Shown here piece by piece: positions 38,738 to 64,000 of a DNA stretch of 64,000 bases. Numbering within the stretch: the stretch's first letter is position 1; every line of letters starts with the position of its first letter. Below the pieces are notes generated by a model. It was given only the letters and a program-made list of their open reading frames with translations, made no database searches and was not told where the DNA came from. The stretch comes from Terrimicrobiaceae bacterium (GTDB lineage: Bacteria; Verrucomicrobiota; Verrucomicrobiia; Chthoniobacterales; Terrimicrobiaceae): NCBI GenBank assembly GCA_018402345.1, contig JAGYIV010000010.1:434001-498000 (forward strand), read 5' to 3'. Position numbers and translations under genes: made by a program.

Positions 38738-38761
38738 CAAGTGATGCAAATGCATCACATG
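38738..38761. promoter_or_regulatory. Palindromic operator candidate, site 1 (upstream of the beta-strand-repeat gene)
   Basis: The core GTGATGCAAATGCATCAC (38741-38758) has perfect 7-bp arms around AAAT. Read leftward it runs straight into TTGACC, a good -35 box, so a bound protein would touch RNA polymerase. The gene starts 56 bp away. Three related sites occur in the window. Confidence 0.65.
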
Positions 38762-43351: not shown

Positions 43352-44617
43352 TTATGTGCTTGGGAGATGTTGCCCGGCGGGGCGTTCGGATTGCGGGGCC
43401 GTGGCGTTATTGTCTTGGAGGGGGGTGTCGCCGGAGTTTTCCGGCTCGATCCACTCAATCTCGCCGGCTTCGTTTTCGATATCCACGCGCACTTTGGCGT
43501 GGGCGAATTCGCGGGTGTAGGTGAATCCATCGCGGACCGCCGGGCCTTTGGGCGCACCGAGTGGACGCTCCAACTCCGGCGGGCGTTTCATCCAGACCTT
43601 GCTGGTGTCGGACCGGTAGCCATCGTGCGCGAGGAAGTAGCTGTGTTCCTCCGCGCAAACGAGGAAGAGCGCCAGCAGATAGGTGAAGCGTTTGTTGTAT
43701 TTGTCATTTTCCTCCAGACCCTTGCGGATTTCATCCGTGCCCTGGGGATTCATGTCGCCCTCCTCGTCGTTCAATCCGGAAAGCCCGGCCGTGAAGGCGA
43801 TCAGGCTGCCCTCGCGCGCCGCTTTCTGGAACGCCTCGATTCCCTTGGCCACATTTTCATTCCTCTTTTCCGGGGTTGTCCCGTGCTCGAAGCCCTCGAT
43901 GTAGGAGCCGTCAAACCGCTTCAGCTCGACCGACGAGGAATCGGGGAGACCGGCACGGAGGACATTGGCCAGGAGAATCTTGTCCGGTCCCAGCGCTTCC
44001 CTTGTCTCACGCATCATGGTCTCGTATCCGGCACGCACGGCGGCTTTTTTGTCTTTTCCGATGTCCTTCTCCAAGAACCCGGGCCTCAACACCTTGACCA
44101 CGCCATCCAAAAACAGGCCATCGATCGCGGGATCGGAGCACACCTCTTTGGCATGGCCGACCCACCAATCCCGCACTTCGCTGTTGCTCAAGTCATAGGC
44201 GCGCATTTTTTTGCGAATCAGCTGTGTTTTTCCTTCGCTCCCGGTGAGGAAGGCATCGGGGATCTTCTCGATCCCGTCGTTGGCCTTGTAGGTGCCGTAG
44301 TGCACGATGACATTGCGGTAGTATAAAATCCTCGCCGAAGGATTGATCTTCTTCACGGCTCTGGCCGCGGCGAGGGTGCCGTCCTCGGTGGATTGGAAGG
44401 CCTGGAACCCGGTGGTTTTTTCGAAGGTCACCAAAGGAAACGACGCAAGGTAGGCGATCTCGGCATCCGTAAACTTCTTGGCTTTGCGGATGTGCATATA
44501 CTGCGGCACGCGGTCCCATGAGAACGCGGGCAGGCGCTCGGGCGGTTGTGCCCGGGCGGGCAAAACGGAAGCCGCCACCAAGGCGAGACAGGCGGCCAAG
44601 CAGGAGCGCGGGATCAT
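43352..44617 (-). CDS. Putative glycoside hydrolase (GHL15-like), secreted
   Basis: A 421-residue protein with a signal peptide ending in LPARA. The body reads as a TIM barrel: ARILYYRNVIVHYGTY, RDWWVGHAKEVCSDPAIDGLFLDGVVK, DKILLANVLRAG and RFDGSYIEGFEHG, with acidic residues at strand ends (FLD in the fourth strand, IEGFEHG in the sixth) as expected for catalysis. This matches the proposed hypothetical glycosyl hydrolase family 15 (GHL15). The substrate is unknown. It lies between the GH36 gene and the esterase gene in the leftward operon, downstream of an apparent internal terminator. Confidence 0.65.
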   Translation of the reverse strand: MIPRSCLAACLALVAASVLPARAQPPERLPAFSWDRVPQYMHIRKAKKFTDAEIAYLASFPLVTFEKTTGFQAFQSTEDGTLAAARAVKKINPSARILYYRNVIVHYGTYKANDGIEKIPDAFLTGSEGKTQLIRKKMRAYDLSNSEVRDWWVGHAKEVCSDPAIDGLFLDGVVKVLRPGFLEKDIGKDKKAAVRAGYETMMRETREALGPDKILLANVLRAGLPDSSSVELKRFDGSYIEGFEHGTTPEKRNENVAKGIEAFQKAAREGSLIAFTAGLSGLNDEEGDMNPQGTDEIRKGLEENDKYNKRFTYLLALFLVCAEEHSYFLAHDGYRSDTSKVWMKRPPELERPLGAPKGPAVRDGFTYTREFAHAKVRVDIENEAGEIEWIEPENSGDTPLQDNNATAPQSERPAGQHLPST

Positions 44618-44698: not shown

Positions 44699-47035
44699 TT
44701 ACTTCAGGGCCAAGCGAACCGACTGGGGTTTGCCCCAGAGGCGGCCTTTGAGGTTCACGCGCCAGAGGTTGTCACCGAGGGACTCCACCCCGGCGATCTC
44801 GCAATTCTCGGCGGATCCGGCGGCCAGCGGCTTCGTGCTGTGGAATGTGAGGCTGCCATCCTGCGCTCCGGCATCGGTCAACACGACCTCCAGCGCATCG
44901 CCGGACACCTTGATGTCGGCGATCTCCGTCGCGCCCATGGAGAGGTGGAGATTCGAGCCCACGAGGAGCGGGCCGTCGCCGGCGAGCGGAGTGATCCGAA
45001 CGAGGGCCGAGGCCAAATCCTCAAGCGGCGCGGTGGTGTAGGAACCCGTTGCGCGGGACACGACGTTGTTTTCCCAGAAATCAAAGACCGCACACTCGGT
45101 GTCGGCGGGCAGACCCGCCTTGGCGAAATCCAGCGTGAGCGCCTTCGCAGGATTCGGCTCGGAGTGCTTGTGGGGCTTGTCGTGGGCGGTTTTGGGGCCC
45201 TCGGACACATTGTAGAGATTCCACACTCCGAAGTCGCCGTAGGGGCGCTGCGCGGTGAACCCGAAGGCCGTGTTGTGCGGCGAGGTGCCGAGCGTGAGGA
45301 GTGTCGCGGGCTCGGCGCTGGCCGGACGCATGATCTCGGCCATCCGCCACACCTCTTGGGCATCGGGAGTGTTCAGCGGCTCGCTGTTCATCGCCGTGCC
45401 TCCCACAAGGGTCGTGATATTATGCCAGGTGCGCCACATGCCCTCCGTGTGGGTTTTTCCGACCACGCGGCTCGGGAGTTCCTTGGCGAGGTAGGAAACA
45501 TCGGGATCGTTCTGCCACCAGACATTGTCGAAAATCTGGAAGCGCAGGACCGAGTGCAGGCACCATTCAAAATGGGCCGGATGCGAGTCGGGGCCCACCC
45601 GGGCGGCATCGACAAAGCCAATCACTCCGCGGGTCGGGGCGCCGAGGCAGGAGAGGATATACATGTCCTCGCCCGCGGCCTCGCGGTAGAGGGTGTAAAG
45701 CTCGCGGAAGATTTGCAGGCGTGTCTTCGTGGGATCATGGAATTTGCTTCCGATGCCGTTGAAATCGATCTTGATGTAGCCGTAGCCATTGTCGCGGGCG
45801 TCTTTGATGATGTTGAAGAGAAACTTCTTGGACTCCGGATGGTCGGGCACGATCCAGTTTGCGCCGTCCGGATGGAACGGATTCGGGTTCATGAAGCTGG
45901 AAATGCCCTTCGCGTCCTTCTGGATCGCATCGGGATTTTCCTTCATCCACGGATGCTCGGGATTGATCATGAGCGGGGCGAACCAAACGCCCGGAATCCA
46001 GCCCTTCTCACGGATGTCCGCCGCCACTTTCGCCATGCCGGAGGGGAACTTTTGGTTGCCCTTCCAGTTGCCATCCATGATCTGGTAGCCGTCGTCGATC
46101 TGCAGGATGCCCTTGCCGAAGACATTAGGGTTCTCGGAGAGGGTCTTGAGCACATCGCGGACATGCGCCTCGTCGATCTTCGTGGTGCGGTCATACCAGC
46201 TGCACCATCCATAAACCGGCCCTTTGTCGAGGCGGGTGCCGTGGGTGGACGCAACCCACTTGGTCCAGAGGCCGGTGGTTTCCGTCGGGGTGCCGAAGGC
46301 CAGCACCTGTTGCTCGCCCTTGCGGCTTTCGCCGGAGCGAACCAGAACGCCGTCCATCTGCGAATAGGCTTTCACTTTGCCTTTGCTGAACTCCACCGTG
46401 CCAAAGGCCTCGGGCGGTCCCGTCGGGCCGATCAAAAAGCCCGAGCCGGTCTTGTCACACACCAAGGCCGCCTCGCTGAAGCCGCCATCGGCCTCCGGGA
46501 GCGGCTTGGCCTCGTCGGCGAGCATGAGCGGAGTGACCAACCAGTCGGCGGGGTTGGCTACGGTGAGCGCGCCGCCCGCGGTGGTGCTGATGGCGGTAAT
46601 CTCGTTCAGGAGGGCGTCCTTGCCACTGTTGTTGTGGAATGTTCCTTGAACAGCGACGGCATTCCGATCCTCCAGCACCGTCACGGTGACCGTGTAGGAT
46701 AGGGTCTTGTCGGGATTCGAGTAGGTGGCCGATGCGGATTCCGCCTCGCCGAAAGGCGTCCCGACCTCGTTCCACTCGGTGGTCTTTTCCACCTTCCCGT
46801 TGGTGGTGGAGAGGGTGACCGGCTGGCCGTCGATCGTCGCACGGAAATCCGAGCTGAAGGTGAACTCTTGGATTCCCGGAGCCTTCACCATGATCTTGGT
46901 GTGATCAGGGGAAAACCGGGCGAGTTTCGGGGCATCGTCGGCGGCGATGGAGTTCATGGCAAAACTCGGAAGGAGTGCCAGAGCCAAGGATCGCGAGGCG
47001 ATTTTTCTCAGGATGGAGTGGTGGTTTGGTTTCAT
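44699..47035 (-). CDS. GH36-family alpha-galactosidase, secreted
   Basis: A protein of 778 residues from the ATG at 47035, with a signal peptide (LALALLPSFAMNSIAA). A GTG at 47065 that overlaps the sulfatase stop is an alternative start. The domain order is that of GH36: N-terminal beta-supersandwich (about 35-260), catalytic barrel (about 270-580) and C-terminal beta domain (600-778). The nucleophile is D424 in GYIKIDFNG and the acid/base is D483 in RVGPDSHP; VYGWCSWYD and LQIDDGYQ are also as in the family. It should release alpha-linked galactose or a related sugar from oligosaccharides. Its C-terminal 150 residues and barrel are clearly related to the sensor part of the histidine kinase at 52910-55858. 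Confidence 0.88.
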   Translation of the reverse strand: MKPNHHSILRKIASRSLALALLPSFAMNSIAADDAPKLARFSPDHTKIMVKAPGIQEFTFSSDFRATIDGQPVTLSTTNGKVEKTTEWNEVGTPFGEAESASATYSNPDKTLSYTVTVTVLEDRNAVAVQGTFHNNSGKDALLNEITAISTTAGGALTVANPADWLVTPLMLADEAKPLPEADGGFSEAALVCDKTGSGFLIGPTGPPEAFGTVEFSKGKVKAYSQMDGVLVRSGESRKGEQQVLAFGTPTETTGLWTKWVASTHGTRLDKGPVYGWCSWYDRTTKIDEAHVRDVLKTLSENPNVFGKGILQIDDGYQIMDGNWKGNQKFPSGMAKVAADIREKGWIPGVWFAPLMINPEHPWMKENPDAIQKDAKGISSFMNPNPFHPDGANWIVPDHPESKKFLFNIIKDARDNGYGYIKIDFNGIGSKFHDPTKTRLQIFRELYTLYREAAGEDMYILSCLGAPTRGVIGFVDAARVGPDSHPAHFEWCLHSVLRFQIFDNVWWQNDPDVSYLAKELPSRVVGKTHTEGMWRTWHNITTLVGGTAMNSEPLNTPDAQEVWRMAEIMRPASAEPATLLTLGTSPHNTAFGFTAQRPYGDFGVWNLYNVSEGPKTAHDKPHKHSEPNPAKALTLDFAKAGLPADTECAVFDFWENNVVSRATGSYTTAPLEDLASALVRITPLAGDGPLLVGSNLHLSMGATEIADIKVSGDALEVVLTDAGAQDGSLTFHSTKPLAAGSAENCEIAGVESLGDNLWRVNLKGRLWGKPQSVRLALK

Positions 47036-47061: not shown

Positions 47062-48939
47062 TCACTCGGCGCGCGTGGCTCCGAGCGGGATGGCGGCGTG
47101 GGCGTAGGTGTTGTTTTTGTCGGATGCCCGAACCGGCTTCGGGTGGCTGACCAGAAAATTGTTCTCATCAACGAGGTTGATGTAGACGTGCGTGGCTTCC
47201 GGCGGGAGGGTGGCTTTGACCACGCCGTTATCGATCTCGCCGAACGCGCGGAACCACTCCTCGGTCTTTTCGTTGGGGTGGATCGCGTAGATCACATCGG
47301 CGCGCACGACGCGGGCGCCGTTCTCTTGGAAGGTCGCCGTGACCGTGTGGCCGTCCACCGTGTGCCCCGTGACGGCGGGGACTTTCTCTTTGTTGGGCAG
47401 CGCGAATTTGCAGTCGGAATTCCAATAGGGAAGGCTGGCCTGCATCTCGGTGAGGATTTCGGTGAGGCGGGCATTCAGCGCGGCGGCCTTGTCGGGCAGT
47501 TCGGCGGCGAGGTTTTTCGACTCCTCGAAATCCACGCGCGCGGGCTTGCCGTTTATCGTTTCAGTCAGCCTGTAGAGTTCGAGCGGAGGCACATTACCGC
47601 TGTGGGTATCGTAGTTGCGGATGAGCTTGAAATCCCCCGCGCGGATCGTGCTTTGGAAGGATGTGGAGCCGCCATGCGGGTAATGCCAAACCATCTCCGT
47701 GCGCGGCTTGCCGTGCTGATCGAGCACGAGCGAAGGATCGTTCGCCGCTCGGGTGAGCAGCGGCAGGAGATCGGCGCCGTCGAGGTTTTTCCCCTCCGGC
47801 TTGGCGATGCCGGACATCGAGAGAATCGTGGGATAAAAATCGAGGCCGTTGACCACGACATCGCTCTCCTTGCCGGCGGGAATGCCCGGGCCGGCGACGA
47901 GGAACGGCACGCGCACGCCGCCTTCCTTGGCCGACATTTTGCCTTTGTCGAGCGGGGCGTTGTCGGTGATCACCTCGTTGCGCGACCCCTCCATGCCGCC
48001 GTTGTCGGAGGTGAAGAAAATGTAGGTGTTGTCGATGAGCTTGTGCCCCGGATTGCGCGGGTCGTCGGTGGTTTCGAGGAACTCGACGAGTTGGCCGACA
48101 TAATGGTCGAGCGTTTCCACCATGGCGCAGTAGTAGGGATTTTTCTGGCCCTCTAGCGTCCACTCGCCGGGATCGGTCGGGAAATCCACACCGAGCTTCT
48201 GGCAGTATTTTTCGAGAAGCGCCTTGCTGCGCGAATAAATCGGGGTGTGGACGAGCCAGGTGGCGTAGTAGAGGAAAAAGGGCTTGGCCTTGTTGGTCTC
48301 CATGAACTCCAGCGCGGCGATGGTCACCGGGTCGGTGGGGAAGCCCTCGGCATCGAGCCGATAGGGATCGCCCGGGCGATCGGTCGAGAAGTCTTGGACG
48401 CGGTTTTTCATGCCGGACTGCACCCCGCGGGCATCGAAGCCGCTGCGGTGCGTGGTGAAGTCGAACCCTTGGTCCAACGGGCCGGGAAACGAGTAGTGGT
48501 CCTTGGCCATGTGCCATTTCCCGGTGTGCCCGGTGGCGTAGCCGTGCTGGCGCAGAATCTTGGTGAGCGTGAGTTCGTTTTCCGGCATGCGGCCGCTATA
48601 CCAAGGGGTGACCAAGGCCGCGTTGACCGGTGCCACGGGCGGATCGCCACCGACGACATGGGTTTTTTGGGCTCGGGCGGGGTGGTTCCCGCTGATGATC
48701 GCGCAACGGCTCGGAGCACAGGTCGGCGCGGCCGAGTAGCCGTTGCGGAAGAGGACGCCGCGCTTGGCGAGCGCGTCGAGGTTCGGCGTTTCCATCGGGC
48801 TCGGCTCGTCGATGTCGTAGCACTTCACATCCTGCCACCCGAGGTCGTCCACAAGCATGAGAACGATGTTCGGAGCAGGGGCCGCGTGGGCGGCAATGGC
48901 CAGGGAGAGGGATAGGGCGAGGAGGGTGCGCTTGATCAT
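47062..48939 (-). CDS. Type I sulfatase (second of tandem pair), secreted
   Basis: A 625-residue sulfatase with a signal peptide ending in AAHAA. The formylglycine cysteine is C74 in TCAPSRCAIISG, matching CxPxR. Metal and sulfate ligands are visible as LMLVDDLGWQD and ITFFTSDNGG-type sequence (FFTSDNGGMEGS), plus HTGKWHMAKD. The C-terminal 150 residues add a beta-rich tail. It removes sulfate esters from carbohydrates and needs a formylglycine-generating enzyme, which is not encoded here. Its start overlaps the stop of the first sulfatase gene by 4 bp. The two sulfatases are only distantly similar, so they likely act on different sulfate positions. Confidence 0.93.
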   Translation of the reverse strand: MIKRTLLALSLSLAIAAHAAPAPNIVLMLVDDLGWQDVKCYDIDEPSPMETPNLDALAKRGVLFRNGYSAAPTCAPSRCAIISGNHPARAQKTHVVGGDPPVAPVNAALVTPWYSGRMPENELTLTKILRQHGYATGHTGKWHMAKDHYSFPGPLDQGFDFTTHRSGFDARGVQSGMKNRVQDFSTDRPGDPYRLDAEGFPTDPVTIAALEFMETNKAKPFFLYYATWLVHTPIYSRSKALLEKYCQKLGVDFPTDPGEWTLEGQKNPYYCAMVETLDHYVGQLVEFLETTDDPRNPGHKLIDNTYIFFTSDNGGMEGSRNEVITDNAPLDKGKMSAKEGGVRVPFLVAGPGIPAGKESDVVVNGLDFYPTILSMSGIAKPEGKNLDGADLLPLLTRAANDPSLVLDQHGKPRTEMVWHYPHGGSTSFQSTIRAGDFKLIRNYDTHSGNVPPLELYRLTETINGKPARVDFEESKNLAAELPDKAAALNARLTEILTEMQASLPYWNSDCKFALPNKEKVPAVTGHTVDGHTVTATFQENGARVVRADVIYAIHPNEKTEEWFRAFGEIDNGVVKATLPPEATHVYINLVDENNFLVSHPKPVRASDKNNTYAHAAIPLGATRAE

Positions 48940-50405
48940 GAGGAGTGGTCGGTGTCGGGATCCCAGAGCGGAAGTTCGCCTTGGGTGTTGCGGAGTTTTT
49001 GGATGGGAAATTCGCCCGGCTTGAGGTCGGGCAGGTCTTCATTGATTAGAAATGGAGGCAGGGAGTCCCACCAGGCATCGTATTGTTTCCGGAGATCGGC
49101 CACGACCTCGGGGTGTTCGGCGGCGACATCCCTGGTCTGGCCGCGATCGGCGGGGATGTCATAAAGTTGAGTGTTGTTCACCAAGCGCCAGCGACTGGTG
49201 CGCACGGCGCACTGGTTGTGTTTGGATTTCTCGCGTTCGCCGGGATTCCAGCGGCCGACATGGGTGATGAGGGTGCGGTCGGGCCAGTCGGCCTTGGGGT
49301 TTTCGAGCAAGGGAACCAGCGAGCGCCCGCCGGGTTGAAGGGGCGAGGGAGGAATTTCGGCACCGGCCAGATCGCAGAACGTGCGGTAGAGATCGATGTG
49401 GGCGACCAGCGCGGGGATGTCGATGCCTTCCGCGAAATGCCCCTTCCACATCCAGAACGACGGGACGCGTGTGCCTCCCTCGTGTGGCGAGACTTTGCCG
49501 CCCTTCAGGCCGGCATTGAAGTGGGGGATTTTTTTTCCGTGAATCTTGAGGGGTGCCATCGCCATGCCGTTGTCGGTCATGAAGACGACGAGCGTGTCCT
49601 TCAGCATGCCGCAGGATTCGAGGTCGGCGAGGAGGAGGCCGACATTGTGGTCGATATTTTCAATCATGCCGTATCGGGCGTCGGATTCCTGATCGAACCC
49701 GAGATCAAGAAAGCGTTTTTTGTATTCCTCCGGCGCGATCATCGGGTCGTGGGGGGCATTGAGCGGGATGTAGGCGAAGAATGGTTTTTTCGCGGCGTGT
49801 TGGCGGTTGATCCATGCCATGGCCGCACGGAAGAACAGATCGGTGCAGAATCCTTTCGTGCGAACGACGGTGTCGTTGTGCAAAAGCACATTGTCGAAAT
49901 AGGGCGTCTCGGTGTTCTCCCGGAAATCACCGTAGATGAACTGCCCGATGCCGCCGGATCCGTGCATGAGCACCTCGTCGAATCCGCGTTGTCGCGGCAG
50001 ATACGCTTGCCCGTCGCCAAGATGCCACTTGCCGAAAAGGCCCGTCGCGTAGCCGGCGCGCCGCAGGGCCTCGGCAACTGTAACCACTCCCGGCGCAAGG
50101 CGGTCGCGTTGCAGAATGGTGTGGGTGACGCCAACTTCGAATTCATGCCGCCCGCTCATAATCGCGGCGCGAGTGGGCGAGCAGGTCGGGCTCACATGGA
50201 AGTCGGTGAAGCGCGTGCCTTGGGCATGCAGGCTGTCGAGGTTCGGCGTCTTCAAATACGGGTTCCCCGTGCAGGAGAGATCGCCCATCCCTTGGTCATC
50301 AGTGAGGATGAAAACGATATTCGGCCGACTTCCCGAAAGCGGCTTGGCCCCGGCGGCGAAACCGAGGCTCGAGGCGGCGAGAAGAAGGATCGAGGGAAAT
50401 CTCAT
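48936..50405 (-). CDS. Type I sulfatase (first of tandem pair), secreted
   Basis: A 489-residue arylsulfatase-family enzyme with a signal peptide (LLLAASSLGFAAGA). The modified cysteine is C75 in TCSPTRAAIMSG (CxPxR). Other family marks are VFILTDDQGMGDL, LFGKWHLGDG, VFMTDNGMA and the histidine in THVGRW. It is the first gene of the six-gene leftward operon. Its ATG lies 80 bp from an operator-like palindrome at 50485-50508. Between them a -10-like TAATGC is spaced 18 bp from ATGACA at the edge of the operator. Confidence 0.93.
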   Translation of the reverse strand: MRFPSILLLAASSLGFAAGAKPLSGSRPNIVFILTDDQGMGDLSCTGNPYLKTPNLDSLHAQGTRFTDFHVSPTCSPTRAAIMSGRHEFEVGVTHTILQRDRLAPGVVTVAEALRRAGYATGLFGKWHLGDGQAYLPRQRGFDEVLMHGSGGIGQFIYGDFRENTETPYFDNVLLHNDTVVRTKGFCTDLFFRAAMAWINRQHAAKKPFFAYIPLNAPHDPMIAPEEYKKRFLDLGFDQESDARYGMIENIDHNVGLLLADLESCGMLKDTLVVFMTDNGMAMAPLKIHGKKIPHFNAGLKGGKVSPHEGGTRVPSFWMWKGHFAEGIDIPALVAHIDLYRTFCDLAGAEIPPSPLQPGGRSLVPLLENPKADWPDRTLITHVGRWNPGEREKSKHNQCAVRTSRWRLVNNTQLYDIPADRGQTRDVAAEHPEVVADLRKQYDAWWDSLPPFLINEDLPDLKPGEFPIQKLRNTQGELPLWDPDTDHSS

Positions 50406-50484: not shown

Positions 50485-50508
50485 CATGTGATGCAAATGC
50501 ACCCGTGC
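50485..50508. promoter_or_regulatory. Palindromic operator candidate, site 2 (upstream of the sulfatase operon)
   Basis: CATGTGATGCAAATGCACCC is followed by GTGC. It matches site 1 over the left arm and spacer, and the right arm has two changes. It is placed 80 bp before the first sulfatase start. Confidence 0.6.
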
Positions 50509-50522
50509 GGGGAGCGAGGTTT

Positions 50523-51901
50523 TTATTCCCGACCGCTTTTTCGGGATGAGGGAACGGTTTTCTTATTTTTGGAGCGTGACCGTCGGTTTCCCAACCCTTC
50601 GGATTGGCCGATGATGGTTTTCGGACTCGCCAGTTTCGGGGGATCGGAAATTCCCTCGAGAAGGTTCCCGCATTGAGATTGGGACAGCGCGTAGTGGCGT
50701 TTATCGCGGAGTGTCTGGATCCCCTCGCCCCATGCCAGAAGCATGTGTTTTCCAAGATCGCGAAACCCGGGGTGTTGTCGGATGGCTTCGCGGACTTGAG
50801 GGGAAGTCTCGGTGATGGCCTCGCAGATCGATTCGATCATGGAAATCTGCTCCCGGAGAGGGATTCCGAATTCCAAGGCAACGAAGTTTTTGAGATTTTT
50901 CCCGGGCACCCAGGTTTTCTTGCCCATCATGGAAATGCCCGGTGGTTGGTTTTGATAGCCCGGGTAAACAACCGTGGTCAGGAAATCGTAGAGCGGCGAG
51001 AGACGCACATCGGCCTTACAGGAGTAGAGGAGCGCCAGATTTTTCGCATGGCAATCCGCATTGCGCAGCGCGTGGGTGAGGAAAAGCGTGAGGGCAAGGT
51101 GTCGGAACGCCTCCCGCTGGCTTGCCCCCGGCAAATGGTGGCGGTCGCTTTCGCGATGCGCTCCCAGGTCGTGTCGTATTTTTTCTCGGGAGAGAGACCG
51201 AGAAGGCAGCAAAAGTCCTCCATGCCCAAATGAGGCCGACCCTCCGCATCGACATCGAAGCGAAGCGCAACGAGGGCTTTGCCATCCTTGGAAATCTCGG
51301 TCTTGGCAGCGGGGAGAACTTTCGCCGCAACCTGCATGCAGAGGTGTTCGTTGAGCGCCGCGTAGGGCAGATGGCGGGTGGAGCCTTTGACGATGTGCTT
51401 GCCGGTGAAGAGGGTGGTTTTGTTGAAGGCTTCGATGCCCGTGTCGATCCCATCGAGAAATTTGGGGATCACTCCCGAAACACCGCTTGTGGCGTGCCGA
51501 TAGACAAGTTCCGAAAAGGCTTCTTCGGTATTGTCTCCCTCCAGCACTTCCGCGACTTCAAAGGCCTGCGGAGGGGTATCGAGATCGGCACCCGGTGCCG
51601 CGACCTGAATCCGACCCACCATTCGACGGCCCACCACGGAAAGAAGCGCGGTGGAATCCGACCCGATATACGGCCCGAACCGCTCCTGGAGCACTTTGAG
51701 CAGGTAGCCCTCGGGGAGGTTCATCTGAAAGATGGGATGCAACGGAGCATCCCAACTGTAGGACTCCGTCCTCACCGGCATGGTGAGCGAAACAAAGTCC
51801 TCCGCAGCCACATGCGGATGGTATGCCATCACCGACTTGAACGCGCCGATCGACTCCAGGGTTCCAACCTCGCGACCGAGTATGTGGACGGAAAGTTTCA
51901 A
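50523..51901 (-). pseudogene. hipA: HipA-like kinase gene with a frameshift
   Basis: The N-terminal 275 codons (from 51901) follow the HipA family: MKLSVHILGREVGTLE (small N-terminal domain), NLPEGYLLKVLQERFG, then GVSGVIPKF and GKHIVKGSTRHLPYAALNEHLCM (ATP-binding region). The C-terminal part, in another frame from about 51125, has FLTHALRNADCHAKNLALLY with the catalytic D and N and SPLYDFLTT with the metal-binding D. The switch falls in a run of five C (51125-51129; GGGGG in the message), where a one-base change restores a product of about 459 residues. HipA is a Ser/Thr kinase toxin that inactivates glutamyl-tRNA synthetase. The state may be a real mutation or a sequencing error. Confidence 0.8.
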
Positions 51902-52152
51902 GAGCCTCCGAGTTCCTTGCGGAGTTCATCGAGATTGCCCGCCGCGTCGGCGGGACGCACATCCAACTCGAGTCCGAGCACGGTCAGGAGGGATGCCAAC
52001 TTGCGGACGCCAAATTCGGGCAGGCGTCCATTTTCCAGTCGGGAGAGCGAGGCTCCGGGGATACCGGCGGATGCGGCCAAGTCCTTCTGCGTGATGCCGA
52101 GTTGCTTTCTTCGCAACGCAAGACGGCGACCAATTTCAGCGGTGGTTTTCAT
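51898..52152 (-). CDS. hipB: HipB-like HTH antitoxin/repressor
   Basis: An 84-residue protein with an XRE-type helix-turn-helix: RRLALRRKQLGITQKDLAASAGIPGASLSRLENGR. The C-terminal tail (NLDELRKELGGS) could contact HipA. It overlaps hipA by 4 bp, the usual antitoxin-first order. HipB binds HipA and represses the operon. An inverted repeat overlapping its own start codon may be its operator. Confidence 0.85.
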   Translation of the reverse strand: MKTTAEIGRRLALRRKQLGITQKDLAASAGIPGASLSRLENGRLPEFGVRKLASLLTVLGLELDVRPADAAGNLDELRKELGGS

Positions 52153-52247: not shown

Positions 52248-52913
52248 TCAGGAAAGTTCCCCGAGATATTTTGCGACAGCCTGGGCGCGGGAGTTCACGT
52301 GGAGTTTGCGGTAGATTCTGCCGGTGACATTGCGCACGGTGGCGAAGGCGATTTCGAGTTCGTCGGCGATTTCCTTCTGGAGGTAGCCCTTGGCCAGTAG
52401 GCGCAGGATGTCCTGTTCGCGCGGCGACAGCGCGTTTTCGACGGACAGCCGGGCATCGGCCGGCGGCTTTTGGAAGGACTGGACGACACGCCTGGCGATC
52501 CCGGTGCTCATGGGCGCGCCGCCTTCCACGGCTTCATGGATGGCTTGGGTCAACTGCTCGGCGGAGACCGGCTTGATCAGGTAGCCGATCGCGCCGGCGG
52601 CGAGGGATCGGAAGACGACCTCCGTGTCGTTGAAAACCGTGAGCATGATGATGTGAACCTGCGGCAGGAGTTCGAGCAACCGCGGCACACACTCGTCGCC
52701 GTTCATGCCCGGCAGGTTCACATCCATGATAACGATCTGGGGGCCGAGAGCGGGAAACTCACGCAGCGCCTCTTCCGCGCTGGACGCCTCGCCGACGAGA
52801 CGGATTCCCTTGGCGTCGGATTCCAAGAATCGGACCAGTGTTTTGCGGATGCCTGGATCGTCTTCGACAATCGCCACAGGGATCGGAGAGATGGAATTTT
52901 CGGGTGTTTTCAT
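52248..52913 (-). CDS. NarL/LuxR-family response regulator
   Basis: A 221-residue regulator. The receiver domain (residues 12-130) has the acidic pocket in IVEDDPG, the phospho-accepting aspartate in VIMDVNLPGMNG, the conserved threonine in MLTVFND and the lysine in LIKPVS. The C-terminal HTH (about 155-218) reads LSPREQDILRLLAKGYLQKEIADELEIAFATVRN, with VNSRAQAVAKYLGE closing the domain. The ATG at 52913 overlaps the stop of the kinase gene as ATGA, so the two form a cognate pair. Its likely targets are the four palindromic sites in this window, because LuxR-type regulators bind inverted repeats, but this is inference. Confidence 0.93.
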   Translation of the reverse strand: MKTPENSISPIPVAIVEDDPGIRKTLVRFLESDAKGIRLVGEASSAEEALREFPALGPQIVIMDVNLPGMNGDECVPRLLELLPQVHIIMLTVFNDTEVVFRSLAAGAIGYLIKPVSAEQLTQAIHEAVEGGAPMSTGIARRVVQSFQKPPADARLSVENALSPREQDILRLLAKGYLQKEIADELEIAFATVRNVTGRIYRKLHVNSRAQAVAKYLGELS

Positions 52914-55858
52914 TTTTTCAGCGAGGTGAGAGGCAGTCGAATCGACACGGTCGTGCCGGAGCCGGGAGTGGAGGACAAATCCATGCGGCCGCCGATCTCT
53001 GCGATGCGGGCGCGCATGTTCTCGAGGCCGTGGCGTGATGTGGAGGCGCTTGCAGGGTCGAATCCACATCCGTCGTCATGGATATCCACCCGGCATTCCC
53101 CGGAGTCGATGTCGATCCCGAGGCGCACTGTGCGCGGCGAACTGTGCGCCGCGGCATTGTGGATCGCCTCGCGAACCACCATGTAAACGGCATGGCGGAC
53201 CTTTGACGACACCGCCACATGGGGCAGCTGCTCGGGGGACTCGAACCGAAACCGGATGCCCGCATCGCTCAAATAGCCCTCGGCGAATTTGCAGAGGTAG
53301 TCGACCATGTTGTCCAGCGTGTCGCGGGCTGGATTCACCGCCCAGACGATCTCGTCGAGCCGCTGCAGGCCTTCCTTTGAAAAGCCGAGAATCTTCCGGA
53401 GCACCGGAGACGGCGTCTCGCCGGGGCTCGCAGCGGCATCCGTGAGCATCGCGATCCGCGCCAGCGTCGCCCCCAGTTCGTCGTGCAGGTCGCGGGCGAT
53501 GCGGGTGCGCTCCTGCTGGCGGGCCTGCTCGTGTTCAAGCGCCTGGGCGGACCTCTTGGAGACGATATATCTCCACACGCCAAAACCGCCGGTCAACGCC
53601 AGCAAAGCGGACAGGAACCAAAACCAGCCCTGCTGGAAAATCGGTTCGGGAACGCTGAAATCGATCCGCTGGAGCGCCCATGGATCGCGCTCCTTGATCT
53701 TGACCTCCCAGACATTCTCACCGGCGGCCACGACCTCCTCCACCCGCAATCCGCTGGCAGCCTCCACCGCCGGCTTGGCTTGGCAGTAAACAAACACCGA
53801 ACCGTCCCGCGCCCCCGCATCGCTCAACTCGAGGCGCATGCCTCCCGGCAGCACGACCACATTCTTGAATTCCGCCGCCCCACAGTAAATGTGCAGGTTC
53901 GATCCGATGATCGTGGGCTTGTTGGGATTTTCGGGAAGCTCGGTGAAAACGAGGTGCTGCGAGGCCGAGGGGGCGAGAAACGGTGTCTTGTATTGCCCCT
54001 CGACCACCCCGAGATACCGGTTGTCCCAGAACGACCATACGGCATGGCGTTTGGCGGGATTCAGCCCCGCTTGGGCCAGATCAAAGGTCACGATGTCCTC
54101 CTTGGCGGCGGGATTCCAAAGCAAGGCCACGACCCATTGTCCCCAATCGCGCGAGACCTTTCCGGCGAGCCGCGGCCACTCGATGGATGTCCCGACATCC
54201 AGCACGCGCGTGCGCTCCCGCGCAGGCGGAGTGAGCACCTGCAGGTTCCTCCAATAGGGCTTGAATGTCTCGCGGCTCCAGAGATCCGTGGTGAAGGCAT
54301 TGCCGCAGGACAACCCCACCATGCTCATCCAGGTGCGCGCCATCGGCCATCCCCCGACGACCGGGCTCACCCCCTCCAACTCCGTGGCGAGGTAAAAGGC
54401 GTCGTTGTCCACGGCGAACCACCGGTTGGCCAGCGGCATGGCCCATAGGCAGGAGGCGATCCTCTCGCGGATCGATGCGCGAAAGACATTTTGCGTGACC
54501 CTGCTGCTGTCCACCGCACCCAAGACCGCCCGGCGCTGCAAATCCAGAACGGAAAGAAGCGCGGTCTCATCCCCCGCGCGCTCGCGAAGCTCTTGAAACA
54601 CCTGGCGGGTCTCCTGGAAATTCGTGTTCTTTCGATCACGGTGCGCTTCGTCGGCAATCTGATACAGGACTTTGAAAAACTTGAACCCCATGCCGAGCGC
54701 CTGCCCGAGCGTTTTGTGAATGTCCGCGCGGGAGTAGAGGGTCTCGTCGAAACGGAAAAACAACCCCGGGTTTGCCTGAATGCCTGCGATCTTGCGAGCA
54801 TAAAACGGCAACCCCTCCGGAAAATTCGCGTTCGTCTCCAAGGGAGTGTCGTCGGATTTCTGGTATTTGTCCTCGATGACCACCGCTTGCGGTCGCAGGT
54901 TCCCGTCGGAGGTCTCCACCGCCTCCACGACCTGCAGGAGGTTCTCTCCGGTGTTGCCCTGGGCGGGAGCCAGCCACCCGGCGACACCACCGAGGGCCGT
55001 TCTGGATCCGTGGGTCTTGGCCACCCAGCCCACCCAACGATCCCAGGCCGCCTGCGGCGGCTCAAAAAAAAGCCCGATTTGCTGGCCCCAACGCGTTTCC
55101 CCGGAATCCACCCGCACCCGGTTCATCGAGGAGGACAGGGCCAGATTCCAGCGGCTTCCCTCCACCGCGTGGAGCTCCAAATTGGCGAAGGCCACGGGTT
55201 CCCCCGCCGGCCCCATGAGAACCCCGCGGCCATCGCGGTTGTAGAGCGTGCATTCCTCGATGATTCCCGCTTGCTGGACATCCCGCAGAGACCTCGCGAC
55301 CACTTGGGGAATCGCCATCCGGCCGGTGTCATCCACCGAGACCCCCGTCAGAACCCACTCTCCGGCGGACCCCTCGAGTTGCAGAACCCCATCGGCGGCG
55401 CTCCCAGACATGCCCCGCAACGGATACACCCTCAACAAATCGCACTCCTTTTTTCCAAACACCCGGATCCCGGCGTTCACAAGCACAACAGGCAGCCCCT
55501 CGATCCGCTCGAGGCGCACCAGAAGATCGATCCCCTCCCGCTCGAAGCGCGTCGTGGAAACATGCACCTCCGCCTTGCCGTAGGGGGTGGATTCATCGAA
55601 GAGAACTTCCTTCCCGATCGCCTTGCCCTCCGTGGATCTCAACGGGCGCTCGACCCCATCGATCACCACGACCGCCTCCGCCATGGCATTCACCACCTGA
55701 AGCCCGGGAGCCTGGATCGAGTAGGCGCGGCCTTCGGGAGTCATCTCGAGCGAAACCCCGCCGCCCCCTTGCGCGAACGCCGAAATTCCCAGCAGGAGGA
55801 ACATGATCACAGCGCACACGGATCGAACCGGAACATCACGGCTGTTGCGACGCGGCAT
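52910..55858 (-). CDS. Sensor histidine kinase with a catalytically dead GH36-like sensor module
   Basis: A 982-residue protein. Residues 1-30 form a signal sequence (VCAVIMFLLLGISAFAQ). Residues 35-735 align along their length with the GH36 enzyme encoded at 44.7-47.0 kb: DRWVGWVAKTHGSR against LWTKWVASTHGTR, and FDLAQAGL plus IIGSNLHIYCGA against LDFAKAGL plus LVGSNLHLSMGA. The nucleophile position reads FFKVLYQ (L398 instead of Asp) and the acid/base position RVTQNV (N457 instead of Asp). One membrane helix follows (744-766). Then come a HisKA_3 dimerisation domain with H792 in RDLHDELG and an HATPase domain with N901 in REAIHNAAAH and DGCGFD. An alternative start at 55897 has AGGA upstream. 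The predicted role is binding of a galactoside-like sugar in the periplasm and signalling to the overlapping response regulator. Confidence 0.88.
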   Translation of the reverse strand: MPRRNSRDVPVRSVCAVIMFLLLGISAFAQGGGGVSLEMTPEGRAYSIQAPGLQVVNAMAEAVVVIDGVERPLRSTEGKAIGKEVLFDESTPYGKAEVHVSTTRFEREGIDLLVRLERIEGLPVVLVNAGIRVFGKKECDLLRVYPLRGMSGSAADGVLQLEGSAGEWVLTGVSVDDTGRMAIPQVVARSLRDVQQAGIIEECTLYNRDGRGVLMGPAGEPVAFANLELHAVEGSRWNLALSSSMNRVRVDSGETRWGQQIGLFFEPPQAAWDRWVGWVAKTHGSRTALGGVAGWLAPAQGNTGENLLQVVEAVETSDGNLRPQAVVIEDKYQKSDDTPLETNANFPEGLPFYARKIAGIQANPGLFFRFDETLYSRADIHKTLGQALGMGFKFFKVLYQIADEAHRDRKNTNFQETRQVFQELRERAGDETALLSVLDLQRRAVLGAVDSSRVTQNVFRASIRERIASCLWAMPLANRWFAVDNDAFYLATELEGVSPVVGGWPMARTWMSMVGLSCGNAFTTDLWSRETFKPYWRNLQVLTPPARERTRVLDVGTSIEWPRLAGKVSRDWGQWVVALLWNPAAKEDIVTFDLAQAGLNPAKRHAVWSFWDNRYLGVVEGQYKTPFLAPSASQHLVFTELPENPNKPTIIGSNLHIYCGAAEFKNVVVLPGGMRLELSDAGARDGSVFVYCQAKPAVEAASGLRVEEVVAAGENVWEVKIKERDPWALQRIDFSVPEPIFQQGWFWFLSALLALTGGFGVWRYIVSKRSAQALEHEQARQQERTRIARDLHDELGATLARIAMLTDAAASPGETPSPVLRKILGFSKEGLQRLDEIVWAVNPARDTLDNMVDYLCKFAEGYLSDAGIRFRFESPEQLPHVAVSSKVRHAVYMVVREAIHNAAAHSSPRTVRLGIDIDSGECRVDIHDDGCGFDPASASTSRHGLENMRARIAEIGGRMDLSSTPGSGTTVSIRLPLTSLKK

Positions 55859-55930: not shown

Positions 55931-55954
55931 CATGTGATGCATTTGTCCCACATG
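55931..55954. promoter_or_regulatory. Palindromic operator candidate, site 3 (kinase/LamG divergent promoter)
   Basis: CATGTGATGCATTTGTCCCA is followed by CATG, with outer arms CATGTG and CACATG. It lies 73 bp before the kinase start and 162 bp before the LamG gene start. A 30-bp block from 55933 recurs with one mismatch at 62767-62796. Confidence 0.65.
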
Positions 55955-56115
55955 CGAATCCGTCGGCACGATGGTAATGATGTTTGAAGTTTGGTTCGTG
56001 GGCATGCGGTCACCCCGGTAGTGCCATGCTCCCATCCTCGCCCATGAAAATCTCCGCCGCAATCCAGCGATCCTTTTTCAACTGATCCTCCATCCCGAAA
56101 AAAACGCCCGACTCC

Positions 56116-58212
56116 ATGTCCCGCCTCAGCTGTTTTCTCGCGATCTGCGCGCTTGCCCTCTCCCCGCTTCTCCGTGCGGACCAACCCGCCGCCTGGTGGT
56201 CGTTCCCCGGCGAGGGAGATCAATTCCTCCAAAGAATCGGCTTGGACCCGGCGGGGAAAAACCATGACCGCGCCGAGGGATTCTTCGGCCGCGCCGATGG
56301 CGTTGTCGGCAATGCCGTCATTCTCGACGGATTCTCCACCCGCGTGACCCGCCCGGCAGACAAGGTCGCTCCGCTCGGAGACGCTTTTTCCTTCGAGGGC
56401 TGGATCGCGCTGCAGGAATATCCTTGGAACTGGGCGGCGATCCTCAATCAGGAGCGCGATCAAAAAGAGGGCTGGTTCTTCGGCATCGGCGGCGATGGGC
56501 GACTCGGCCTGCATGTGGCGAAGGATGGAAAGTGGATCGAGTGCAATTCGAAGTCCCAACTTCCGCTGCTCAAGTGGTCGCATGTCGCGGGCAGCTATGA
56601 CCCCGCATCCGGCCTGAAGGTGTTCATCAATGGAAAACTCGAAGGCGAAGTCAAAACGACCGGTCCGATCACACCCGCGAACGGCGTGGATCTCCTCATG
56701 GGAATGAGCCACACGCGCACCTACCCGATCCGCACAGAGCGCAAATACAGCATGTCGTTCCTCTCTCCCATGTTGCTCGACGGGCTTCTGGACGAGGTGA
56801 AAATCCACAACAAGGCGCTCACCGAGGAAGAGGTCGCGCAGGCTTACGCCGCCGTCCAACCAAAGGTCGCGCAACCGCTGCAATTCCGCCGCATGCCCTC
56901 CGGCCCGGAAGGCCCAGGGGACTTCGGCGCCTTCTACACGCGGCTCAATTACGCGCCCGAGTGGGAGCGGCATTGGCGGGTCGGCGAATTTCCCGACATT
57001 CTGGTGCGCTTCGACGAGTCGCCGAGCCGCGTCGTCTTCTGGCGCGGCACAAATTACGGTGCGTGCTATGTGAGCGAGAACGGCCTGTGGGCTGGCGATC
57101 AAAGCCTCGAGGTCAACAGCGCCGAGACCGGTTGCTACGAACACATGGCCGACAAAAAGTGCGAATTTTCCACCGCGAAGATTCTGGAGAGCAACGAGGC
57201 CCGCGTGGTCATCCACGCCCGCTACGCCTCGGTGGGCATCGATGGCAAATTCCTCAACCCCGACCCGCTGACCGGCTGGGGCCTGTGGTCCGACGAATAC
57301 TTCACCATCTACCCGGATGGTGTGACCGTGCGGTATGTGGTCGCCACGAACCACGGCGGCGGCGGCCAATGGCAGGAGACGCTTCTCTACAACCAGCCCG
57401 GGGACAGACCGGAGGACACGGTCGATATCAAGGCACTCACCCTCGCCAACGAGAAGGGCGAAACCCACACCTACTCGTGGGAAGACGGCCCGCCTTTGAA
57501 GTGGAAGGATCCCAACAGCCCGGAGAGGCTTTTCCGTATCCCCGAAAACCCGAACATCCAACTCGTGAATTTCCGCTCAGAGTGGAAGCCGTATCTCATC
57601 TTTGAACCCGGCGTGAAGATCGAAGGCTTCGGGATCCCGCCGAGTTCCGACTACTCGATGTTCCCGTGCTGGAACCACTGGCCCGTGGCCCAGCTTCGCA
57701 ACGACGGCCGCAAAGCGATCATCTCCGACCGCCCATCCCATTTCTCACTCTCCTCCTCGCGGCCGGTGATCCACCGCGCCAACGGGAACAGCGAGGCGAT
57801 GTTCCTCTACGGCATGACCGACCAACCGGCCGAAACCCTCGCGCCACTCTCGCGATCGTGGAACTCCGCCCCGGCGGCGACGCTGGCAGGCAGCGGCTAT
57901 GAAGGCGGTGCCTATAAAAAATCCGAGCGCGCCTACATTTTCACCGCGAAATCCCCCGGCGCCGGACCGCTCGAATTCTCGCTCGACGCGACACACGACT
58001 CGCCGATCCAGAACCCCGCCTTTGTCGTCAAAAACTGGGGCAACCGCCCGGCCAAGCTCACCATCGACGGAAAAGACATCCCGCGCGGGAAGGACTTCCG
58101 CTTCGGCCACAACAAAACCCTCGAAGGCTCCGACCTCATCGTTTGGGCAAAAATCCAAGGCGATAAAAAAACCTCGTTCAAAATCCAAACCAACGACGAC
58201 GGCCAGGATTGA
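56116..58212 (+). CDS. Secreted LamG/concanavalin A-like protein of unknown function
   Basis: A 698-residue protein with a signal peptide ending in SPLLRA. Residues 25-230 are a LamG-type jellyroll: VIDGFSTR-like start (AVILDGFSTRVTRPADK), FSFEGWIALQEYPWNWAAIL, GRLGLHVAKDGKWIEC, WSHVAGSYDPASGLKVFINGK and DEVKIHNKALTEEEV. Residues 265-690 form a second, larger beta-rich region (FDESPSRVVFWRGTNYGACY, GLWSDEYFTIYPDGVTVRYV, NHWPVAQLRNDGRKA) that I do not recognise. It may be a polysaccharide lyase or glycosidase of an unassigned family, or a binding protein. It is divergent from the kinase and shares its promoter region. A decayed tandem copy follows immediately. Confidence 0.75.
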   Translation: MSRLSCFLAICALALSPLLRADQPAAWWSFPGEGDQFLQRIGLDPAGKNHDRAEGFFGRADGVVGNAVILDGFSTRVTRPADKVAPLGDAFSFEGWIALQEYPWNWAAILNQERDQKEGWFFGIGGDGRLGLHVAKDGKWIECNSKSQLPLLKWSHVAGSYDPASGLKVFINGKLEGEVKTTGPITPANGVDLLMGMSHTRTYPIRTERKYSMSFLSPMLLDGLLDEVKIHNKALTEEEVAQAYAAVQPKVAQPLQFRRMPSGPEGPGDFGAFYTRLNYAPEWERHWRVGEFPDILVRFDESPSRVVFWRGTNYGACYVSENGLWAGDQSLEVNSAETGCYEHMADKKCEFSTAKILESNEARVVIHARYASVGIDGKFLNPDPLTGWGLWSDEYFTIYPDGVTVRYVVATNHGGGGQWQETLLYNQPGDRPEDTVDIKALTLANEKGETHTYSWEDGPPLKWKDPNSPERLFRIPENPNIQLVNFRSEWKPYLIFEPGVKIEGFGIPPSSDYSMFPCWNHWPVAQLRNDGRKAIISDRPSHFSLSSSRPVIHRANGNSEAMFLYGMTDQPAETLAPLSRSWNSAPAATLAGSGYEGGAYKKSERAYIFTAKSPGAGPLEFSLDATHDSPIQNPAFVVKNWGNRPAKLTIDGKDIPRGKDFRFGHNKTLEGSDLIVWAKIQGDKKTSFKIQTNDDGQD

Positions 58213-58229
58213 AAAAAACTCCAACCCAC

Positions 58230-62764: not shown

Positions 62765-62788
62765 GGTGTGATACATTTGTCCCACATG
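62765..62788. promoter_or_regulatory. Palindromic operator candidate, site 4 (upstream of the fucosidase)
   Basis: GGTGTGATACATTTGTCCCA is followed by CATG. It shares 23 consecutive bases with site 3 (62774-62796 against 55940-55962). The fucosidase start is 121 bp downstream. Confidence 0.6.
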
Positions 62789-62908
62789 CGAATCCGAGGG
62801 CGCGGTGATAGTTATCATTTTTGAATGCTCGTGAAATCGCGGGTATCCCCGCGATGCAGCAGTGCAGCCCCCGGCCCACATCGTGACGAAGCCGCCCTCC
62901 GACAAGCC

Positions 62909-64000
62909 ATGAGAAAAATCCTCGCATCCCTGCTGCTCAGCGGACTCGCCTTTGCCGAGGCGGTGCCGAGAGCCGACAACCCCGAGCAGGCCTATGCCGA
63001 CTCGTTCAAGAAACGGTTTGCCGCCGACCTGCGCCACCCGCCGGAGTCCGAGGCGCGGCTGAACAAATGGTTCCGCGATGACAAATTCGGCGTCTTCATT
63101 CACTTCGGCGCGTATTCCCCTCTGGCCGGCCAATACAAGGGAAACCCCATGGGCGGGCCCTACGCCGAGTGGGCAATGATGGCCTTTCGGATTCCGCTCA
63201 AGGAATACCGCGAGGAGGTCGTTTCCAAATTCAACCCGCAGGAGTTCGATGCCGACGAGTGGGCGCGGGTTTTCAAGGAAACCGGCATGAAGTATGTCGT
63301 GATCACCTCGAAGCACCACGATGGCTTCGCGCTCTTCAAGTCGGGCGTCACGGATTACAATATTGTCGATGGCACGCCCTTCCAGCGCGACATCATCAAG
63401 GAACTCGAGCAGGCCTGCCACCGCCACGGGCTGAAATTCGGCGTCTACTACTCGCAGGCCTTCGATTGGAGCGAGCCGGGCGCGCCGTTTCCCGAACAGG
63501 AAGCCATCCGGCAAATCCACCCCGACCTTCCCGCCGACTTCGAGGCGAACGACAAAACCATGGCCGAATACCTCGCCAAAAAATCGTATCCGCAGCTCGA
63601 GGAGTTGATGAAAAACTACAAGATCGACCTGCTTTGGTTCGACACCCCGGCATCGATGAAGCCCGAGCAAGGCAGGCGGTTTCTGGAAATCGTCCGCAGA
63701 AACAACCCCGACTGCGTCGTCAACTCACGCCTCCTCTACTGGCCGAAGGAGGAATGGAAGCCTGAGCAACTCGAGTTTTTCGACTATGTCTCGCTCGAGG
63801 ATAAGGAGGTGCCACCCCACAAACTCTCCCTCACCACCGAGTCGCCCGACAGCGTGAGCACCTCGTATGGCTACAAGGTCCACGGCCCGGTGCGCTACCA
63901 CACGCTCCAGGAAATCATCCACCGCTTTGTCCACACCGTGTGCGGCGGCGGAAATTACCTCCTGAATTTCGGCCCGATGGGCAACGGCCAGGTCGATCCC
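62909..64000 (+). CDS. Alpha-L-fucosidase (GH29), secreted, partial
   Basis: The first 364 residues of a GH29 fucosidase that runs off the right edge. A signal peptide is present (LASLLLSGLAFAEA). The barrel shows KFGVFIHFGAYSPLAGQY, VITSKHHDGFALF (sugar-binding HH), FGVYYSQAFDW and IDLLWFDTP with the nucleophile D245. NYLLNFGPMGNGQ near the window end is also typical. It should release terminal alpha-L-fucose. With two sulfatases and an alpha-galactosidase nearby, the target may be a sulfated fucose- and galactose-containing polysaccharide such as a fucoidan-like or mucin-like glycan. The start at 62909 follows the shared regulatory site by 121 bp. Confidence 0.93.
   Translation, partial: MRKILASLLLSGLAFAEAVPRADNPEQAYADSFKKRFAADLRHPPESEARLNKWFRDDKFGVFIHFGAYSPLAGQYKGNPMGGPYAEWAMMAFRIPLKEYREEVVSKFNPQEFDADEWARVFKETGMKYVVITSKHHDGFALFKSGVTDYNIVDGTPFQRDIIKELEQACHRHGLKFGVYYSQAFDWSEPGAPFPEQEAIRQIHPDLPADFEANDKTMAEYLAKKSYPQLEELMKNYKIDLLWFDTPASMKPEQGRRFLEIVRRNNPDCVVNSRLLYWPKEEWKPEQLEFFDYVSLEDKEVPPHKLSLTTESPDSVSTSYGYKVHGPVRYHTLQEIIHRFVHTVCGGGNYLLNFGPMGNGQVDP

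Follow-up and report, generated by a model that had tools for sequence, protein, structure and literature searches.

A histidine kinase whose outside domain is a GH36 glycosidase fold without its catalytic aspartates, encoded in a carbohydrate locus

Introduction

In BlaR1 and MecR1, a class D beta-lactamase-like enzyme fold has been recruited to act as a receptor outside the membrane and governs the gene of the corresponding enzyme. The hybrid two-component systems of Bacteroides carry beta-propeller/Y_Y_Y sensors, with a receiver and a helix-turn-helix (HTH) domain on one chain. Such membrane sensor kinases, with a large outside domain, control the polysaccharide genes of Bacteroides polysaccharide utilisation loci (PMC3404733). 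In Clostridium thermocellum, the anti-sigma factor RsgI6 bears a GH10 module of very low activity that binds xylan and cellulose, and it controls xylanase genes (PMC4711584; Bahari et al. 2011, cited there). Here we analyse a stretch of 64,000 nucleotides from a Terrimicrobiaceae bacterium (contig JAGYIV010000010.1, positions 434,001 to 498,000; hereafter the window) that encodes a sensor histidine kinase whose outside part is a GH36 glycosidase fold lacking both catalytic aspartates. We consider it likely that this kinase and the regulator encoded beside it form a two-component system in which the sensor is a GH36 glycosidase without catalysis, derived from one ancient fusion to a HisKA_3 kinase, and that the pair senses glycans and governs a palindrome-controlled regulon.

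RsgI6 is the closest precedent. In both cases a glycoside hydrolase module serves as the outside part; RsgI6 binds glycans and controls genes for carbohydrate-active enzymes, as the window kinase would do according to its neighbourhood and candidate operator. However, RsgI6 joins GH10 to anti-sigma signalling in Firmicutes, whereas here GH36 is joined to a histidine kinase in Kiritimatiellia relatives. The Bacteroides hybrid systems likewise control polysaccharide genes through a membrane-bound kinase whose outside domain is large, but the window system differs in its dead-enzyme sensor and its separate NarL-type regulator. BlaR1 and MecR1 also turn an enzyme fold into an outside receptor, but use covalent antibiotic sensing and proteolytic signalling, with no kinase. 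NarX/NarL and DesK/DesR share the HisKA_3 and HATPase kinase and the NarL/LuxR-type regulator, but their sensor domains are unrelated to GH36. In Pontiella agarivorans (Kiritimatiellales), HisKA_3 kinases and regulators stand beside glycosidases and sulfatases, with their sensors undescribed (PMC10880615), and no sensor derived from a glycosidase is mentioned in a review on the diversity of sensor kinases (PMC8534201). We found no description of GH36, or of any other glycosidase, fused to a histidine kinase in the open-licence PubMed Central literature, in line with an earlier note on this DNA, whose author knew of no family with this architecture. As enzyme-derived receptors are known already, we judge that the novelty here lies in the enzyme family (GH36) and the signalling chassis (a histidine kinase).

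An inactivated GH36 enzyme as the outside domain

The sensor and the product of the GH36 gene at 44699-47035 share 25% identity over 784 alignment columns (BLASTP expect value, E, 3e-59). No Pfam glycoside hydrolase family reaches threshold in the sensor, so that family searches alone would miss its GH36 origin; the neighbouring enzyme itself merely grazes the Melibiase model, and matches solved GH36 structures (TtGalA, 6lcj, E 1e-30; Thermotoga maritima GalA, E 4e-26). An AlphaFold2 model of the kinase, built from a 28-row alignment, has a mean predicted local distance difference test (pLDDT) score of 86, with values >90 for most of residues 35-740. Its top Foldseek matches are GH36-type enzymes (F. 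plautii galactosaminidase, AgaA, TmGalA and AgaSK). VIA-align returned Z 23 over ~445 residues against TmGalA, and Z 22 over 580 residues for model residues 33-736 against plant alkaline alpha-galactosidase (7exf-7exj), the latter indicating that a single GH36 protein makes up the entire outside part. Over the barrel part alone, GH27 barrels score slightly above GH36, as expected within clan GH-D.

The chain begins with a hydrophobic signal or anchor (residues ~11-29), followed by the dead GH36 domain (~33-738) and a transmembrane helix (~744-766) that is continuous with HisKA_3 (783-840, E 5e-9), and then by HATPase_c (890-978, E 7e-13). In the model, the C-terminal beta domain is followed by one unbroken helix (744-810) that covers the membrane segment and goes on as the phosphorylation helix, uninterrupted by any HAMP or PAS domain. 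The kinase half matches solved DesK structures, and the HisKA_3 phosphoacceptor His792, within RDLHDE, is invariant in all 14 kinases of the family described below. Pfam found no beta-propeller or Y_Y_Y sensor in the window kinase, and its chain holds no receiver or HTH, the regulator being a separate open reading frame. The earlier note had described a sensor of about 700 residues homologous to GH36 over its full length, then a transmembrane helix, HisKA_3 and HATPase domains, and had set it apart from the propeller sensors of Bacteroides; Pfam, the model and the significant similarity in both sequence and fold agree with this description on each point.

In its fold the sensor resembles the GH36 alpha-galactosidases (T. 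maritima GalA 1zy9, TtGalA 6lcj and 7exf-7exj), with an N-terminal beta domain, a (beta/alpha)8 barrel and a C-terminal beta domain, and it shares their GW motif, barrel Lys and the Arg preceding the acid/base site. Unlike them, it is fused to a kinase and lacks the catalytic Asp residues, most of the IDD pair, the pocket Cys and Trp, and most of the WFAPL segment. The replacements proposed in the earlier note proved exact in an alignment of 14 kinases with 14 enzymes: Leu398 stands at the nucleophile position and Asn457 at the acid/base position, and the motifs GWCSWYD and LQIDDGYQ have decayed to GWLAPAQ and VIEDKYQ. By sequence and by fold, similarity to GH36 is evident and no intact catalytic Asp was found at other positions. 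The only conserved barrel acids visible near the site, Asp484 and Asp486, correspond to the enzymes' NDPD motif and were rejected as the catalytic pair.

Loss of the active site extends across the family. The acid/base Asp (R-x-G-x-D motif) is gone from 14 of 14 kinases, which have N, E, G, V, S, T or M in its place (Glu in two of them), and the nucleophile Asp (K-I-D motif) is gone from 13; no kinase has both. The first Asp of the IDD pair is kept in 11 kinases and the second in one, the window protein. In kinases, the substrate-loop segment that bears WFAPL, between the PG and G positions, is reduced to 22-34 residues from the 65-81 of enzymes, the deletion amounting to ~40 barrel residues in the window kinase. 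Enzyme-conserved positions lost in at least 13 of the 14 kinases (window kinase numbering, enzyme letters: C296, D330, W340, K345, W367, P370, L371, D398, F399, L423, Y424, D457, S458, N483 and G565) are mostly in pocket motifs. This loss is graded: G-W-x-S-W-Y and Q-I-D-x-G-Y are still found in several kinases beyond the window's genus, and both are gone within it.

These residues also bear on the idea that the sensor is a slow or partly dead glycosidase, for which the residence time of a slowly turned-over substrate would be the signal. The low residual activity of the RsgI6 GH10 module provides a precedent (PMC4711584), and one kinase with its nucleophile and two with Glu at the acid/base position would suit such a mechanism. 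However, the window protein has neither catalytic Asp and a loop segment ~40 residues shorter, and not one kinase combines the two catalytic residues; we regard this explanation as very improbable. The kinase that keeps its nucleophile Asp (L033:7965-10835, motif KIDC) is early-branching and has lost the acid/base Asp and most of the loop; it is a possible intermediate in the loss of catalysis.

A family probably descended from one fusion

We surveyed ~786 genomes from the order, class and phylum to which the window belongs, and additionally ran one contig scan. The family comprises 14 fusions of GH36 to HisKA_3, the window kinase and 13 further near-complete ones, spread over several families of the phylum and with open frames of ~930-1085 residues. 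Near-complete or full-length fusions occur in the same genus (G000, G015, G019, G020 and G023, with a fragment in G018) and elsewhere in the phylum (three in G337, of which contig C14 carries two in tandem and C17 the third; two each in G410 and G769; one in G664), identity to the window kinase outside its genus being ~39-47%. The contig scan, with the window kinase as its single query, yielded one relative, L033, from a metagenome-assembled genome labelled Kiritimatiellia, because such a scan relies on exact peptide words. A tblastn search of PLSDB for plasmid spread gave no match.

In a maximum-likelihood tree of GH36 regions, rooted at the midpoint, the 14 kinases form a single clade (support 100/99) that is sister (100/100) to L100, an intact stand-alone GH36 enzyme from a different family (genome G393). 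Since the kinases form one clade, they probably stem from a single fusion with inactivation, followed by diversification. The GH36 gene 6 kb away was rejected as the source of the sensor, as the tree sets that enzyme in a different clade. In G337, the two tandem pseudo-GH36 kinases (L093:5165-11834), each with its own response regulator, belong to different sub-clades, and are thus old paralogues kept adjacent.

The ratio of non-synonymous to synonymous substitution (dN/dS) in the sensor is 0.15-0.31 in three kinase pairs, compared with 0.135 for an active-enzyme pair; the very close pair L091/L092 is uninformative, having too few silent changes. These low values indicate that the dead domain is under purifying selection. 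A chance read-through, an assembly artefact or a decaying pseudogene could be entertained from one genome alone, particularly as a frameshifted paralogue and a split hipA lie nearby. Against this stand 13 further near-complete orthologues with open frames in several families, intact kinase motifs and purifying selection, so we reject this explanation, whose probability we consider close to nil.

The response regulator and a candidate operator

A NarL-type regulator follows the kinase at every locus with downstream sequence, mostly overlapping it or lying at most ~20 base pairs (bp) away; in the window, the start of the regulator overlaps the stop of the kinase. The regulator's phosphoacceptor Asp64 and its Lys114 are invariant in 13 orthologues. 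The 3.14 Mb genome yielded just two HisKA_3 kinases.

Scanning the DNA around the kinase for sigma-70 promoters was unproductive. Genome-wide, the 22-mer ATTTGTCCCACATGCGAATCCG has exactly two copies, one in the gap between the kinase and LamG genes and one before the GH29 gene, and comparison with the kinase promoters of relatives led to the palindrome TGTSATRC-ATTT-G-N3-SACATG. With one mismatch tolerated, pattern searches, on which all operator counts rest, found seven sites for it across 16 genomes from the genus (four used in writing the pattern and three new), and none for reversed-pattern controls. All seven are confined to three kinase-bearing genomes, at kinase loci or before the window's PATR or GH29 gene. 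Strict palindromes within the loci number four, compared with 0.05 expected from shuffles. Among the window sites (O1 to O4, Table 1), the score of O4 barely exceeds the best of 20 shuffles.

A wider form, TGTC-N5-TTT-N4-GACATGAC, has 26 sites in 16 genomes versus one in the control. In G019 a site precedes the active GH36 gene by 94 bp, and in G020 one precedes a GH36-like/GH29 gene by 74 bp; others lie upstream of kinases and of genes for a SASA esterase (G018), a GH78-type protein (G015), a PATR-fucosidase (G337) and an FGE-sulfatase-domain protein (L033). From these positions we infer that the TGTC-N12-GACATGAC palindrome is a candidate operator of the kinase-regulator pair. Genome G769 contains many near-identical palindromes of the form TGTCATCA-[AG]TTT-TGATGACATGAC (for example L116 1501 and L124 1501), one of them upstream of a gene for a GH67-N-domain protein; they probably mark a second regulon with the same operator architecture and other arm letters.

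A proposed route from dead pocket to gene control

We propose that the dead barrel, outside the inner membrane, would bind without cutting a glycan fragment freed by the neighbouring GH29, GH36 and sulfatase enzymes. In the prediction, only a few residues separate the C-terminal beta-sandwich from the one transmembrane helix, which leads directly into the phosphorylation helix; as this coupling contains neither HAMP nor PAS, ligand binding would alter the packing of the kinase dimer. Glycan binding may thus shift the helix that joins the membrane segment to the dimerisation and phosphotransfer domain, upon which the kinase would phosphorylate the NarL-type regulator. The phosphorylated regulator would then bind the TGTC-N12-GACATGAC palindrome and turn on the kinase's own promoter, the fucosidase and surface-protein genes and, in some genomes, GH36 genes. 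Of all the steps in this mechanism, the ligand is the least secure. That part of the earlier reading in which a GH36 enzyme became a kinase sensor and lost its catalytic residues is upheld by alignment and fold; its other part, glycan binding by the sensor, we infer. Any such binding is probably not in the classical alpha-galactoside mode, because several residues expected to hold galactose (the second Asp of IDD in most members, the WFAPL Trp and the GWC Cys) were lost alongside the catalytic pair.

What remains of the old pocket can be read in two ways. Lys396 and Trp295 are invariant in the 14 kinases and Arg453 is present in 13, while other pocket letters vary (IED, IDS, IDR, IGE, IDN). 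The GH36 shell could instead be a rigid scaffold, or a surface for dimerisation or protein docking, with the signal supplied by another protein (such as a surface enzyme of the locus) or by cell-envelope stress. Such a role would accommodate the loss of catalytic and several sugar-binding positions, the differing pocket letters and the conservation of the scaffold, in which 94 of 106 kinase-invariant sensor positions are common to L100, the closest enzyme. However, the retained Lys, Trp and Arg and the carbohydrate loci at all complete neighbourhoods examined favour a glycan receptor, and differing pocket letters are also compatible with receptors that have each been adapted to a distinct glycan; thus we consider a scaffold unlikely.

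Several observations weigh against glycan sensing through this operator. The differing pocket residues among kinases, while compatible with different ligands, fit a scaffold equally well. Galactose-binding residues are kept only in part, the second IDD Asp, loop Trp and Cys being lost in most or all kinases, so a ligand that is not a sugar is conceivable, and L033 retains its nucleophile Asp. The pattern search found the general operator form in neither G410 nor G664, both carriers of the fusion, and several other loci have no good operator site. Additionally, the many similar palindromes of G769, with TGATGACA arms, may serve other regulators. Given G769 and the two genomes without the form, the palindrome is assigned to the NarL-type regulator provisionally.

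With glycan sensing still our preferred reading, a broader proposal, for and against which we find the case evenly balanced, is that pseudo-GH36 histidine kinases are an undescribed receptor family of single origin in the Verrucomicrobiota-Kiritimatiellia lineage, arising by glycosidase inactivation. Its members would read different sulfated or fucosylated glycans through a retuned dead pocket, and would control dedicated regulons through the TGTC-N12-GACATGAC operator, the inner four bases being clade-specific. As standard annotation detects the kinase half alone, the family would be overlooked. Its tree resolves the passage from enzyme to receptor: an intact sister enzyme is available for comparison, and the 14 descendants reveal which parts of an active site are lost and which persist. 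The family also gives a way into the question of how Kiritimatiellia-type bacteria, which degrade sulfated algal polysaccharides, choose which enzymes to make, and the candidate operator lets regulons be predicted.

The surrounding locus

The genes around the kinase (Table 1) support the suggestion in the earlier note that this is a polysaccharide locus. Across kinase loci, carbohydrate neighbours include GH29 fucosidases and GH36, GH36-GH29, GH59/GH127, GH95, GH106, GH16 and GH78-type proteins, as well as a SASA esterase, sulfatases and PATR surface proteins.

Table 1. Genes and candidate operators in the window
Feature	Coordinates	Strand	Basis or position
Sensor histidine kinase, 982 residues	52910..55858	minus	Open reading frame, BLASTP, Pfam, AlphaFold model
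Cognate NarL-type response regulator (receiver and LuxR/GerE HTH)	52248..52913	minus	Pfam, orthologue alignment
Candidate operator O1, TGTGATGC-ATTT-GTCCCACA-TG..	55933..55962	plus	Between kinase and divergent LamG gene
Candidate operator O2	62767..62796	plus	Upstream of GH29 alpha-L-fucosidase gene (start 62909)
Candidate operator O3, TGTGATGC-ATTT-GCATCACT-TG	38738..38759	minus	56 bp upstream of PATR gene 33565-38682
Weak candidate operator O4, ACGGGTGCATTTGCATCACATG	50485..50506	minus	80 bp upstream of sulfatase operon
Active-type GH36 enzyme, full catalytic set	44699..47035	minus	Sensor homologue, not its closest relative
GHL15 putative glycoside hydrolase	43352..44617	minus	Pfam
Sulfatase	47062..48939	minus	Pfam
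Sulfatase	48936..50405	minus	Pfam
LamG/concanavalin-like secreted protein	56116..58212	plus	Pfam; divergent from kinase, downstream of O1
GH29 alpha-L-fucosidase	62909..64000	plus	Downstream of O2; extends beyond window end
PATR-repeat surface/autotransporter-like protein, 1705 residues	33565..38682	minus	Downstream of O3

Other features of the locus were noted. A second copy of the LamG gene at 58209-60375 is 92% identical to the first over 467 residues, with a frameshift near 58957, and is followed at 60400-61503 by the C-terminal part only of a GH106 protein. Directly downstream of the kinase and regulator genes lies a hipBA-like toxin-antitoxin pair (50523-51901 and 51898-52152, minus strand), in which the HipA frame is split, two overlapping frames matching consecutive parts of HipA_C. 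A 1004-residue protein (30242-33256, minus strand) has a partial match, far below the cut-off, to the Verru_Chthon cassette protein A model (TIGR02600). Just beyond the window end, L107:6234-7955 (plus strand) encodes a protein in which a Ser/Thr protein kinase domain is joined to a 3-keto-disaccharide hydrolase (DUF1080) domain; this may be a further kinase that senses through a carbohydrate-active fold.

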